Positions 743-28,600 of a DNA stretch of 37,957 bases are shown one piece after another. Numbering within the stretch: the first letter of the stretch is position 1; every line of letters starts with the position of its first letter. The position numbers and the translations under genes were made by a program. Under the pieces are notes generated by a model. The model ran no database searches. It was given only the letters and a program-made list of their open reading frames with translations, and was not told the origin of the DNA. Source of the stretch: a virus; the IMG/VR virus record IMGVR_UViG_3300049830_000126, positions 1 to 37,957 of that record; one strand, given 5' to 3'.

Positions 743-897
743 TTCGCTTCTTCCTGGGCGAGTAGCAACTCGAACTCGGCCGATTTCAAATCGTCAACCG
801 CGGCGTAGGCCGCAGTCCACTTGCGCTGCGCGATGCAGATGCGCAGTTTGATGTAGGCGGCGAATGTGGCCCATCGCGCTTTCTCGACGGAGTTCAT
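739..897 (-). CDS. 52-aa ORF between the two terminase halves
   Basis: Starting with ATG at 897 (ATGA overlap with the ATPase stop) and ending with TGA overlapped by the GTG of the nuclease gene, this ORF encodes 52 aa beginning MNSVEKARWATFAAYIKLRI. It is rich in Ala, Lys, Arg and Glu and probably all helical. It has no recognised domain and no homing-endonuclease or intein motif. Both ends are coupled to terminase genes, which argues that it is translated rather than being debris from a frameshift. It could be a linker subunit of the packaging motor or an unrelated passenger. No function is assigned. Confidence 0.65.
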   Translation of the reverse strand: MNSVEKARWATFAAYIKLRICIAQRKWTAAYAAVDDLKSAEFELLLAQEEAK

Positions 898-1937
898 GTA
901 TCTACCCTCGCAATGTCAGGATCGTACAGTTTGAACATTTCTCGATTGAAGTGGACTCCCGTGAACGGCGCCGGGCGCTGTTGATACAACGCGGCCCATG
1001 TGCGCGCCGCCCGCGGATTGTCGCGCCATGTCGTCCAATGTTCCCGCGGGAACCATTCCGGCCAGAGGAACTCGCCCGGCTTGCGGCCGAGCGGATCGTC
1101 CGCACGTTCAGCTTCTGCCGGAATACATAGCACTTCCCACGTCTGCCCATCGCGGCAGGCGATGCGCCCACTCTCACCGGAATAGTCGAGCGGCAATATG
1201 CTGCCGGCCAAATCTTCTTCATGCCAACGCGTTTGAATGAGGATGGCCCACATCGTCGGCTTGGCGCGAGTCATCGCCGTGTCAATATACTCGTTGTATA
1301 TTTTTTCGCGGATGGTAGCGGAGTCGGCCTGCTCGCGGTTTGCAACCGGGTCGTCTATGATAAGACCGTCCGCGCGATTGCCGGTGATACCAGCGAGCAG
1401 GCCAGCTGCCATCATGCTCGATCCTGTCGTCAATTGCCAGTCGTCCACTGCGCGCTGGTCGTCTAGCAGCATCGGGCGCTCGGCCCATAGCGAGGAATAT
1501 TCCGGCGTGCGGCAGATGGCGCGCACCTTGCGGCTCTGCTTCGCGGCAATGGAAGTGGCGTATGAACCCAGGATGATCTGCGTGTTCGGCTTGCGGCCCA
1601 TCGCCCACGACGGCGCGACGACAGAGGCGTAGGTAGACTTGGCCGAGCCCGGCGGCATGAACACCATCAAACGCCCGCGCGGCGTTTCTATACAGCGTTG
1701 TATGGCCTGCATCAGCAGTAGATGGTGAAGCGCGACGCGCGATTCGATCGGCAGGTAGACGATCGGCCTGTCCTCGAAGCGATTGACTAGTTTGCCGTGG
1801 TCATCTTCCACATCGCTGACTTCAACCTGCGGCACGCCCGGTATCTCGATCGACTGGCTGTATTCTACCAGCGAGTTGCGGGCGCGCTGGCGACGCAGCA
1901 TCTCCGCTGCGGCGAACTCCGGGGCTAGGGCTTCCAT
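894..1937 (-). CDS. Terminase large subunit, ATPase domain (split gene)
   Basis: This 347-aa protein is the ATPase motor half of a large terminase, which drives DNA into the procapsid. The Walker A-like loop MPPGSAKST lies at about residues 94-102, Walker B GLIIDDPV at about 191-198, and the coupling motif ILIQTRWHEEDL at about 232-243. The chain ends just after WAALYQQRPAPFTG and MFKLYD, which in unsplit homologues is followed directly by the nuclease domain. Here it stops with TGA at 896-894, coupled by ATGA to a 52-aa ORF. The ATG at 1937 is 9 nt from the stop of the small terminase gene. The ATPase assignment is firm; the break after the linker is real in this sequence and unusual. Confidence 0.92.
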   Translation of the reverse strand: MEALAPEFAAAEMLRRQRARNSLVEYSQSIEIPGVPQVEVSDVEDDHGKLVNRFEDRPIVYLPIESRVALHHLLLMQAIQRCIETPRGRLMVFMPPGSAKSTYASVVAPSWAMGRKPNTQIILGSYATSIAAKQSRKVRAICRTPEYSSLWAERPMLLDDQRAVDDWQLTTGSSMMAAGLLAGITGNRADGLIIDDPVANREQADSATIREKIYNEYIDTAMTRAKPTMWAILIQTRWHEEDLAGSILPLDYSGESGRIACRDGQTWEVLCIPAEAERADDPLGRKPGEFLWPEWFPREHWTTWRDNPRAARTWAALYQQRPAPFTGVHFNREMFKLYDPDIARVDT

Positions 1938-2300: not shown

Positions 2301-2503
2301 TGTCCACCATCGTCGATCAGCGCGGCCAGCAAACGGTCGATCTGGTCGTGCGGCAAGTCGATAGTGACCACCTGCCCGGTGCTGCCGTTGTTGCCGCGCC
2401 CGCGCACCGTCATGGTCGTGCGGCCTATCGCATCGCGGTTGATGCTGATGTAGCCTGGGTTTCCTACCAGCTCGGTGAACGCGAAGATATTCTTCTGGCT
2501 CAC
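2297..2503 (-). CDS. Hypothetical 68-aa protein of the packaging operon
   Basis: The GTG at 2503 overlaps the TGA of the upstream gene (GTGA), giving a 68-aa product beginning (M)SQKNIFAFTELVGNPGY. A longer in-frame extension upstream is Arg-rich, lies inside the neighbouring gene and is rejected. The protein looks like a small mixed alpha/beta domain with a charged C-terminus. It is not recognised. Its position just before the small terminase is consistent with a packaging or regulatory role, but this is inference. Confidence 0.6.
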   Translation of the reverse strand: MSQKNIFAFTELVGNPGYISINRDAIGRTTMTVRGRGNNGSTGQVVTIDLPHDQIDRLLAALIDDGGQ

Positions 2504-2799
2504 AGCACGCCTTCTTTCTCGCAGCTGGCGCGCACGTTGCCGAACTCCTGTCGCTCTTTGGGAATCGCTATGGCCGCGGCGACGCACGCCGCGTCCTCGC
2601 GGCATTCCTTGACGCCCACCATCATCTGCTCGCCACGATCATTCGCCATCACCAGCACGGAGGGAATTCGGTTCACGCTGATCAGCTTGATGCTGGTGTC
2701 GCGGGCCGGAGGCGGGAATTTCGGAAACGTGTAGTACCCACCGGCAAAAGCAACTGCTACGGCGAATACTTCGATCGAGAAACGGCGGGCTTTGAACAT
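2500..2799 (-). CDS. Small membrane-anchored protein, first gene of leftward operon
   Basis: The ATG at 2799 is chosen because an AGGAG Shine-Dalgarno element sits about 7 nt upstream; an earlier in-frame start has no such signal. The 99-aa product starts MFKARRFSIEVFAVAV and has one hydrophobic segment (about residues 9-24) after a basic N-terminus, so it is probably an inner-membrane protein with its C-terminus outside. Three cysteines in the C-terminal half (KECREDAACV and ASCEKE) could form disulfides in the periplasm. Spanin-type or superinfection-exclusion roles are possible but unproven. Confidence 0.6.
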   Translation of the reverse strand: MFKARRFSIEVFAVAVAFAGGYYTFPKFPPPARDTSIKLISVNRIPSVLVMANDRGEQMMVGVKECREDAACVAAAIAIPKERQEFGNVRASCEKEGVL

Positions 2800-3025: not shown

Positions 3026-3040
3026 TGGCACGCAATTTGC
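3026..3040 (+). promoter_or_regulatory. Sigma-54-type promoter motif, rightward
   Basis: TGGCACG-CAAT-TTGC matches the -24/-12 consensus for RpoN holoenzyme exactly, with GG (3027-3028) and GC (3039-3040) 10 nt apart. It would start a rightward transcript near 3052, inside the control region, with no gene for about 500 bp. It may serve as a long-leader promoter, an RNA promoter or a binding site only. The match is visible; use by RpoN is inferred. Confidence 0.55.
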
Positions 3041-3064
3041 GCACAGCCTATCGCTAATTGCTGT

Positions 3065-3079
3065 TGGCACGATTCTTGC
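3065..3079 (+). promoter_or_regulatory. Sigma-54-type promoter motif, rightward
   Basis: TGGCACG-ATTC-TTGC is a second exact match to the -24/-12 consensus, 39 bp after the first and on the same strand. Its downstream sequence is also non-coding until 3577. It lies 14 bp from a leftward match, so the two face each other. Confidence 0.55.
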
Positions 3080-3093
3080 GGGGAGGGTATTGC

Positions 3094-3108
3094 GCAATAA
3101 GCGTGCCA
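3094..3108 (-). promoter_or_regulatory. Sigma-54-type promoter motif, leftward
   Basis: On the minus strand this reads TGGCACG-CTTA-TTGC, an exact consensus match. Transcription would begin near 3083 and run into the leftward operon, whose first start codon is at 2799, giving a leader of about 280 nt. No clearer sigma-70 promoter was found for that operon. Confidence 0.55.
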
Positions 3109-3136
3109 ATCACGGCTTGGCCGCCAATTTGCAAAC

Positions 3137-3363
3137 GGGACATTGGGACAGGCAAATGGGACACTGTAAGTTATTGTATTTACTATTATTATTTATTTAT
3201 TTGTCCCATTGTCCCAAAATACCAATAGAGAATGGCAAATAGCTGATAAAAAACGTAATTATAAATGGCGACCAAAATAACGTAGGACAAGTGGGACAAA
3301 GCGTGACAGGTTGTCGAATTCCCCAATGCAATCAGCAACTTGCGAGTGTCCCAATTGTGTCCC
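3137..3363. repeat. Array of TGGGACA/TGTCCCA half-sites around an AT-rich stretch
   Basis: GGGACA occurs at 3137, 3145 and 3158; TGTCCC at 3202 and 3210; GGACA at 3285 followed by GGGACA at 3293; and TGTCCC at 3347 and 3358. Neighbouring half-sites are mostly 8 bp apart, and the first two pairs are inverted with respect to each other across an AT-rich segment. This resembles binding sites for one oligomeric protein, either an origin-binding protein with a DNA-unwinding element or a repressor. Which one cannot be decided from sequence. Confidence 0.55.
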
Positions 3364-3411
3364 GAGTCGATTTAACACTTGGAAAATAATTAATTACCGC
3401 GACAGCCTAGT

Positions 3412-3426
3412 GCAATAAGCGTGCCA
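3412..3426 (-). promoter_or_regulatory. Sigma-54-type promoter motif, leftward
   Basis: The minus strand reads TGGCACG-CTTA-TTGC, exact and identical to the leftward motif at 3094-3108 including the N4 spacer. The two leftward copies share 16 nt, AATAAGCGTGCCA plus flanks on the plus strand, suggesting duplication. It would direct RNA through the half-site array towards 2799. Confidence 0.55.
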
Positions 3427-3440
3427 GCATGACGTAAATT

Positions 3441-3500
3441 GTCACAATGTGACGCGCTACGTCACAATGTGACGCTGCGCGTCACATATATTATTGTCAC
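3441..3500. repeat. Three tandem 20-bp units with GTCACAATGTGAC palindromes
   Basis: Units begin at 3441, 3461 and 3481. The first two carry the perfect inverted repeat GTCACA-A-TGTGAC; the third keeps GTCACA at its start and has another GTCAC at 3496. A 20-bp period places sites on one face of the helix (about two turns). They lie roughly 55-115 bp upstream of the expected start of the first rightward transcript, the normal distance for an enhancer-binding activator of sigma-54, though a repressor operator is also possible. Confidence 0.6.
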
Positions 3501-3528
3501 ATTTCAATAGAATCAATGACTTAGTAGT

Positions 3529-3543
3529 TGGCACGGTAGCTGC
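3529..3543 (+). promoter_or_regulatory. Near-consensus sigma-54-type promoter of the rightward operon
   Basis: TGGCACG-GTAG-CTGC differs from the -24/-12 consensus at one base (C for the first T of TTGC) and keeps GG-N10-GC. The expected start is near 3555, leaving a short leader that contains the AAGGAG element and then ATG at 3577. No convincing sigma-70 -35/-10 pair is seen in this stretch. This is the best placed of the five motifs relative to a gene. Confidence 0.6.
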
Positions 3544-3576
3544 ATGTATTTAGCTAGGCAAGAAGGAGTTCAAACG

Positions 3577-3819
3577 ATGATACCCAAGTCACTACATACC
3601 GTTACGGCATTGGCCAATCTGGGGCGCCATATAGCGTTGGAACAACGCTTTCCGGGCAATTGCGAGCTGGAAGCGGCCGTCAGCATTGCGGCCGCCATCC
3701 TAGGCTATAGCGACGCCGATGACGTGTATGGGCTCAAGGTTAAGGCTACGGCCATTCTTCGCGGTGAGCAATACGCCGCCTACCGCGATGCTGTTGTCGC
3801 GAGCGAGGTGCGGCCATGA
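3577..3819 (+). CDS. Hypothetical protein, first gene of rightward operon
   Basis: The product has 80 aa beginning MIPKSLHTVTALANLGRHIA. The ATG at 3577 is chosen over an earlier in-frame start because AAGGAG precedes it by 9 nt and the earlier start would overlap the promoter. It looks helical, with an Ala-rich middle (AAVSIAAAILGYSDADDV). The family is not recognised. As first gene behind the candidate promoter it is probably made very early, so a host-takeover or regulatory role is plausible but unproven. It ends in an ATGA overlap with the next gene. Confidence 0.7.
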   Translation: MIPKSLHTVTALANLGRHIALEQRFPGNCELEAAVSIAAAILGYSDADDVYGLKVKATAILRGEQYAAYRDAVVASEVRP

Positions 3820-26847: not shown

Positions 26848-27479
26848 ATGTTGAACCCTTCGCCTATCATCACGTTGATAGTGAACAGCTCGGAGGCTGC
26901 AGACGTAACGCACAACCCAACCTGTAGACCGGCTACGGTCGTATCGAATCCGGCGGAAATTGCAGTGAGCACTGACTGCTGTACGGTCAAGTGGCCGGTA
27001 GTCTGCAAATTGTGCGTCATGCTGAATTCGCCGACCATGATGCCGGAAGCACCGACCGACCGCATGACGGCGATAATCTCAATCCAGCCTTCGTCGGCGA
27101 CAGCCGTGCCGGCTGGCTTTGTGAAAGATACGCGCGCCGCATCCGCGGTAGACGCGTTTGTTCCGACTGCAATATCGAACACGCTGGTGCCCGCGCCAGC
27201 GCCGGTTTTCGACAACCCGATTTTCCACTTGAAGCAGGTGTTTGACTGCATCTTGTTGCTCGAAATCGGAATGTTCGACCCGGTGATGTAAGTGCGGGTG
27301 GCGGCGGCCGGCGCCTGCGCACTAGCCTGTGGGGCAGGTACCTGCGCGCGTTGATAGGTTCCGAATATGGCGTTGCTGTTCTTGAAGCAGATATAGCCGT
27401 TTGTGTCGCCGTATATAATGCCCGATCCGTTTGGCGGATTGACCGGCGCACTCTGCACATCAACTTGAATGTCAGACAT
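26844..27479 (-). CDS. Virion protein with fibre-like beta segments, 211 aa
   Basis: ATG 27479 overlaps the TAA of the fibre gene (TAATG). It starts MSDIQVDVQSAPVNPPNGSG, and its body (FDIAVGTNASTADAARVSFT and FSMTHNLQTTGHLTVQQSVL) is beta-rich and Ser/Thr/Gly-rich, typical of fibre tips. It follows the collagen-like shaft, so it may be the tip or head domain, but no family is recognised. Confidence 0.6.
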   Translation of the reverse strand: MSDIQVDVQSAPVNPPNGSGIIYGDTNGYICFKNSNAIFGTYQRAQVPAPQASAQAPAAATRTYITGSNIPISSNKMQSNTCFKWKIGLSKTGAGAGTSVFDIAVGTNASTADAARVSFTKPAGTAVADEGWIEIIAVMRSVGASGIMVGEFSMTHNLQTTGHLTVQQSVLTAISAGFDTTVAGLQVGLCVTSAASELFTINVMIGEGFNI

Positions 27480-28600
27480 TACATCACCCGTAGTCGCGCG
27501 GTACCAGCAAGTGTTGCCCGCTCAATTCTGATAAGTATAAGATGGTTGACCATCGAGGCGTAGTAGCCGTTCGGGATATTGAAAATACCCGGTGCGTACG
27601 GCCGAATGGAAATCGTCTCGGGCGCTTTGGCCGCGGCAGAATCCCAGCCGTCGGTGCCTGGATCGCCGTCGAGCCCGGCAATACCCGGCAAGCCCTGCAA
27701 ACCTTGTGCACCCTGCATGCCCGGCATACCGGGGTTACCGTCCATGCCCATATCGGCTTCTAGATATGTGGCAACCCCGGCCGGGCCTGGAACACCAGAC
27801 AACCCCATCGGGCCGGGCGGCCCAAGGTCGCCATCCGGGCCGGGGTCGGCTTCGAGGTAGACGGGCGGCCCGATCGGGCCTTGAGCGCCTGTGAGCCCCT
27901 GCAACCCCATCGGCCCCATATCACCATCTGCGCCCATGTCCGCTTCTAGATAGACAGCCGGACCCGCCGGCCCCGAGCCGCCGGTAAACCCTTGCGGCCC
28001 CATCGGGCCGGGGTCGCCATCGGTGCCCGGATCGCCGTCCATGCCGGGATTGCCCTGTGGCCCCTGAGCGCCTGTGAGCCCCTGCGGGCCGACCGGGCCG
28101 ATAGGGCCTATATCGCCATCGGCGCCAGGATCGCCGTCCATGCCGGGGTTGCCCTGCGGTCCTTGGGCACCTGTAGCCCCAGCGGCGCCTGCCGCGCCTG
28201 CCGCGCCCGGCGGACCAGGATCGCCGTCGGCCCCTTGCTCGCCATCCATGCCCGGACGGCCAAGCGCACCGTCCGCGCCCGCGCGGCCCGGCGGCCCTAT
28301 CGGACCAGCCTCACCCTCGATCGGATCATCAAATTGGATAGGGATGGGTGCCGTCAGGTAGATCGGTACGCTGCCCACGATCGGGCCGCCGCCCCCGAGG
28401 CCGGGGCCTGGCGCCAGACTGGCCAGTCCGCCAACACCGCCGGCCGGCGTCGTGGTCGAAGTTATGCCGAGCGCGGCTTTGAGCTGCGCCAGCGTGACCG
28501 TCTGGCCGGCGAATTCGGCAATCACCGTCGCCAGAGTTGCATCTGGGATGGTGACTGTTTTCCGAACGCCGCCGATGACGGGAAGCTGAATCTTACGCAT
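27479..28600 (-). CDS. Collagen-like tail fibre protein
   Basis: The 373-aa protein begins MRKIQLPVIGGVRKTVTIPD. From about residue 95 to 320 it is almost entirely Gly-X-Y triplets (GPPGRAGADGALGRPGMDGE style). Three interruptions share the sequence (V/T)YLEAD(M/P)G, dividing the collagen into modules that each restart with DG..GP.G(L/P). The shaft should form a trimeric triple helix in a virion fibre. The last 50 residues form a folded tip (ISIRPYAPGIFNIPNGYYAS). Its G-X-Y repeats are recognisable; attachment site and receptor are unknown. Confidence 0.8.
   Translation of the reverse strand: MRKIQLPVIGGVRKTVTIPDATLATVIAEFAGQTVTLAQLKAALGITSTTTPAGGVGGLASLAPGPGLGGGGPIVGSVPIYLTAPIPIQFDDPIEGEAGPIGPPGRAGADGALGRPGMDGEQGADGDPGPPGAAGAAGAAGATGAQGPQGNPGMDGDPGADGDIGPIGPVGPQGLTGAQGPQGNPGMDGDPGTDGDPGPMGPQGFTGGSGPAGPAVYLEADMGADGDMGPMGLQGLTGAQGPIGPPVYLEADPGPDGDLGPPGPMGLSGVPGPAGVATYLEADMGMDGNPGMPGMQGAQGLQGLPGIAGLDGDPGTDGWDSAAAKAPETISIRPYAPGIFNIPNGYYASMVNHLILIRIERATLAGTARLRVM

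Follow-up and report, generated by a model that had tools for sequence, protein, structure and literature searches.

What starts transcription in the gap that separates the early arm of this soil phage genome from the late arm, and does the phage or its host hold the switch? The window (the whole 37,957-base stretch analysed, an IMG/VR virus record) had been described in a first-pass annotation as carrying, in this gap, four exact copies of TGGCACG-N4-TTGC and one near copy, taken for sigma-54 promoter motifs. All five were found at the positions reported:

3026 to 3040, plus strand: exact sigma-54 site, without an upstream palindrome (UAS) nearby
3065 to 3079, plus strand: exact sigma-54 site, convergent with the site at 3094 (14 nt apart), without a UAS nearby
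3094 to 3108, minus strand: exact sigma-54 site facing the late arm, without a UAS nearby
3412 to 3426, minus strand: exact sigma-54 site facing the late (terminase) arm, with UAS 1 lying 43 bp behind it
3529 to 3543, plus strand: near copy TGGCACGGTAGCTGC, the putative early sigma-54 promoter (-24 GG at 3530-3531, -12 GC at 3542-3543)

The record contains no further exact copy elsewhere, and, as had been argued, the repetition is real and not due to chance: dinucleotide shuffles gave a mean of 0.12 copies and none of 100 reached four. The sole change in the near copy is at the first T of TTGC, with GG and GC kept, and GG-N10-GC (-24 GG and -12 GC at fixed spacing) is retained in all five copies. 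The early copy is preceded by T and followed by A, several TTGC copies are followed by G, and the 593 exact sigma-54 sites of other viral contigs show Y on the 5' side of the core and W on the 3' side.

The sigma-54 consensus, with its known tolerance, is YTGGCAYR-N4-TTGCW, and a sigma-54-dependent promoter needs RpoN together with an ATP-driven activator. Conservation was assessed in a comparison anchored on the terminase large subunit (TerL), for which 80 relatives were fetched:

894 to 1937, minus strand: terminase large subunit (phrog_38, E 2e-60)

Matches to a sigma-54 matrix were 6.5 times denser in the region 0.9–2.6 kb upstream of TerL (0.99 per kb) than elsewhere (0.15 per kb). So that the matrix did not build in the answer, TGGCACG-Nk-TTGC was tested in 55 non-redundant zones; this search of the same gap in related phages, which the annotation had proposed, returned 37 copies with k = 4 and 0–2 with any other k. 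Single-mismatch copies were also in excess in the relatives' zones (51 vs 9.2 expected), with mismatches mostly at T0 (replaced by C), C5 (replaced by T) and T11 (any replacement), rarely at G13 or C14 and never at G1, G2 or C3. Because substitutions avoid the -24 GG, this tolerance is as expected for sigma-54. Conservation, spacer length and tolerance together bear out the proposed sigma-54 reading, and on these patterns we regard the use of sigma-54 as well supported and very probable. The trait has a scattered distribution over the TerL tree, being absent from the nearest relative by TerL (L022), and TerL matches in genomes and phages were distant only, with no close relative in a named host.

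The copy nearest the early arm is suitably placed to serve the first early gene, as had been suggested, and transcription from it would start at about 3554-3556. The start codon at 3577 lies 34 nt after the -12 GC and is preceded by a Shine-Dalgarno element:

3563 to 3568, plus strand: Shine-Dalgarno element AAGGAG
3577 to 3819, plus strand: first early gene (80 aa, MIPKSLHTV...), no family assigned

Among the relatives compared, the copy in this position forms a subtype of its own, TGGCACG-N4-VTGCAW, which in many of them is followed after 33–58 nt by a Shine-Dalgarno element and a start codon (subtype before a gene start in L010, L011, L023, L029, L030, L052 and L054). Look-alikes of the first early protein were found behind the same promoter type at three loci (L350, L385, L418).

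The most informative feature of the gap, which the first-pass annotation left out, is an array of three 15-bp palindromes (TGAC-N7-GTCA) at 3430-3484, spaced 20 bp apart and directly upstream of the early promoter:

3430 to 3444: UAS 3, TGACGTAAATTGTCA, 84 bp to the early promoter
3450 to 3464: UAS 2, TGACGCGCTACGTCA, 64 bp to the early promoter
3470 to 3484: UAS 1, TGACGCTGCGCGTCA, a putative PilR-type box, 44 bp to the early promoter and 43 bp to the leftward promoter at 3412

Given the two distances of UAS 1, the array sits between divergent promoters, and one array could serve both directions. The box was present in 14/14 relatives with the early promoter (24 copies in the 200 bp before the promoter, vs 0.075 expected from shuffles at N7), whereas spacers other than N7 gave 0–4 copies at the same 14 loci. 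Gaps lacking sigma-54 sites yielded no TGAC-N7-GTCA, and one relative (L046) has the boxes but only a variant sigma-54 site. The NtrC box is GCAC-N7-GTGC. The boxes of the array are TGAC-N7-GTCA and not of this NtrC type, and because of that difference we reject coupling to nitrogen through NtrC as the default. The annotation had linked infection to host nitrogen or general stress; this is not supported, since the box found here is in bacteria a marker of pilA.

That association emerged from a scan of 398 genomes from a single phylum and 195 from a single order for the box plus a sigma-54 site. Six of the 17 genome matches directly precede a gene for a type IV pilin bearing the FTLIELMIVVAIIGILAA signature, nine fall by chance inside long ORFs, and the other two are L461 and L463; pilA therefore accounts for 6/8 matches once the chance ones inside genes are removed. 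Every match that combines a good intergenic palindrome with a gene close behind (six cases) is pilA. In a pattern-independent test on 60 pilA genes, from two orders both picked for holding a match, 43 had a sigma-54 site, and 25 of these 43 promoters had a box within 110 bp (1.6 expected), exact at 21 (0.06 expected). At its free positions, too, the box reads alike in phages and at pilA (S-TGACA-W...TTGTCA-C). Gaps between box and promoter are 42–44, 51–54 and 61–64 bp in phages and mostly 38–39 and 61–63 bp in the sampled pilA promoters, from most of which the phage gaps differ by a shift of about 4 bp; the boxes of the window stand at 44, 64 and 84 bp, and pilA loci with gaps of 44, 53 and 63 bp exist (L469, L399 and L355, respectively). 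L399 and L355 are on contigs classed as viral, where this combination of box and promoter precedes a pilin gene; the pilin there may be either host DNA or phage-borne.

PilR is the known sigma-54 activator of pilA, and it has been proposed to become active when attachment of the pilus lowers the pool of pilin (PMC6058289). Because the box marks pilA and PilR activates pilA with sigma-54, we assign PilR to the array as the probable bound protein. We infer this strongly, from the pilA position of the box only, and the box could also be one recognised by a paralogous activator. The early promoter might instead depend on sigma-54 with another host activator that has a PilR-like box (a relative of the FleQ/NtrC family), in which case the signal would not be pilus state. 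Palindromes of this geometry are bound by many such activators, the NtrC box likewise having an N7 spacer (established knowledge); we nevertheless consider this unlikely, given that the six good intergenic genome matches with a gene close behind are all pilA and that the free positions agree with pilA boxes while the half-sites differ from those of NtrC.

The combined box and promoter pattern is widespread, occurring in at least 119 viral stretches. Control patterns matched too (scrambled half-sites 44 times, reversed order 76 times), hence part of this number is chance, and phasing was analysed on intergenic, deduplicated loci only. Among the matches listed, 40% lay inside long frames (97% for scrambled and 70% for reversed controls), 55% had a second box nearby (5% and 30%) and 39% had a start with a Shine-Dalgarno element behind (5% and 5%). 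The gap between UAS and promoter at the intergenic loci (at least 61) peaks at about 42, 52 and 63 bp and is phased with a period of 10.5 (Rayleigh R 0.53, p about 4e-8), whereas it was not phased in the scrambled and reversed controls. Such helical phasing fits the need of an activator to contact the polymerase. By shared proteins, the viral loci with the pattern among the matches listed form 39 groups (the largest of 54), a number that may be inflated by fragments. DMS3, F116 and phiKMV are pilus-dependent phages; no intergenic site was found in ten isolated phages that included these three.

Phasing and placement also bear on two readings in which the early copy is not an activated promoter. 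The array could be an operator for a phage repressor or replication protein, with early genes read from a sigma-70 promoter, an idea to which further repeats in the gap and a weak sigma-70-like match (3439-3468, 9/12 positions) overlapping the array lend something. However, sigma-70-like matches are about as frequent as in shuffles, a phage-specific operator leaves the same box and promoter at host pilA unexplained, and it is against the sigma-54 site that the boxes are phased; we think this highly improbable. Hardly more credible is the suggestion that the sigma-54 sites are not promoters but decoys, or parking places, by which host RpoN or polymerase is titrated. In its favour, no gene follows closely on the sites at 3026 and 3065, and many viral contigs carry paired sites, convergent or in tandem; yet a decoy would need neither a constant spacing to the first gene nor a phased UAS, and the early copy has both. 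For the sites at 3026, 3065 and 3094 individually, a role as secondary promoters fed by looping, or as polymerase parking sites, may apply.

Paired sites were recorded at IMG/VR loci L119-L198 and L239-L309. Tandem exact pairs (gap often 9–13 bp) and convergent pairs (gap 3–8 bp) are both common in varied viral contigs, far above chance. Hairpin formation by the palindromes was discarded as an explanation, the spacers of convergent viral pairs being complementary no more than expected by chance.

The record has no end repeat, and both of its ends lie within minus-strand late genes; it is a fragment, missing about 8–9 kb relative to near-full-length relatives (46–48 kb), and the earlier remark that no activator is encoded in the window is consequently weak when taken alone. 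The remark holds more widely: PF00158, the domain that marks a sigma-54 activator, is absent from the window and from 18 relatives, near-full-length ones included, and from 22/23 further viral records (two also among the relatives tested before). The one further viral record with a match (G593, the contig of L346; E 2.8e-6) could carry a phage-borne activator or an ATPase. RpoN domains were not found in the window or 11 relatives. The phage may be lytic, as the annotation implied: no integrase was seen, in a record that is short of about 8–9 kb.

The sequence shows the motifs, their conservation, spacing and phasing, their placement ahead of the first gene and how they match the pilA promoters of hosts; from these, our preferred account is that the gap is probably a bidirectional, host-driven promoter region of the PilR/sigma-54 pilA type that gates first transcription of the phage. 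Host PilR, phosphorylated by PilS, would bind the array at 3430-3484 and open host sigma-54 RNA polymerase at 3529, rightward into the early genes, and probably also at 3412, in the leftward direction of the packaging genes. Neither sigma factor nor activator would come from the phage, so first transcription would depend on an active host pilus regulator. More speculatively, the pilin-pool signal may extend to infection: pilus attachment would lower the free pilin pool, PilS would activate PilR, and the injected genome would be turned on, thereby confining early expression to cells that carry and use pili. That the host kinase which senses the pilus controls the early programme of many unrelated phages in this way is conceivable but rather doubtful.

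The closest known system is the pilA promoter under PilS-PilR and sigma-54 in Pseudomonas aeruginosa and others, which likewise has a -24/-12 site, TGAC-N7-GTCA boxes upstream and a gene start shortly behind (PMC6058289). It drives pilin, whereas the phage copy would drive early genes and has three boxes 20 bp apart between divergent promoters. Promoters of the NtrC/NifA type share the layout of palindromic UAS 70–130 bp upstream of the start (established knowledge), and NtrC boxes have the same half-site spacing as the phage boxes but other half-sites; no link to a nitrogen gene was found for the phage-type box. The phage shock response is a sigma-54 response connected with phage infection, but there a host gene responds, whereas here the phage's own early genes would carry the promoter. 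That response (PspF, sigma-54) is mentioned in PMC3844500, where operons of the Salmonella Fels-2 prophage are altered in an rpoN mutant. Fels-2 resembles the present case in that RpoN is linked to phage gene expression; those operons are, however, expressed more strongly in the rpoN mutant than in the wild type, and the portion of that paper dealing with Fels-2 describes no early sigma-54 promoter (PMC3844500). Searches of the open-access literature turned up no account of phage early promoters dependent on PilR or sigma-54.

An uncultured phage clade and many other viral contigs seem to use an enhancer-dependent, pilA-type early promoter. Phage early genes are normally expected at promoters that are on in every cell. 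The arrangement would predict a host property (PilR and type IV pili) for phages without a known host, and it suggests a way to make infection conditional on pilus activity.

The gap holds a second set of repeats, and the late arm begins beyond it:

2500 to 2799, minus strand: first gene of the late arm (MFKARRFSIEV...), with Shine-Dalgarno element AGGAGT
3137 to 3363: GGGACA/TGTCCC repeats (starts at 3137, 3145, 3158, 3202, 3210, 3293, 3347 and 3358)

These repeats, some of them 8–9 bp apart, flank an A+T-rich stretch, and an analogous layout with other repeat words (TGTCTTAC, TGTTCCTAT) occurs in relatives (L037, L067, L068, L078). Region 3137-3363 thus resembles a replication origin whose iterons would have diverged between phages. 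A structured RNA in the late leader was considered and dismissed (fold z-score 0.18; no Rfam family at gathering score). The leader contains TGGGTCCCTCAAA (AGGGACCC on the late strand) twice, at 2858-2870 and 2956-2968, about 98 bp apart; most relatives have kept this element, whether they carry sigma-54 sites or not. At 27479-28600 (minus strand), a tail-region protein carries many collagen-like repeats (PF01391).
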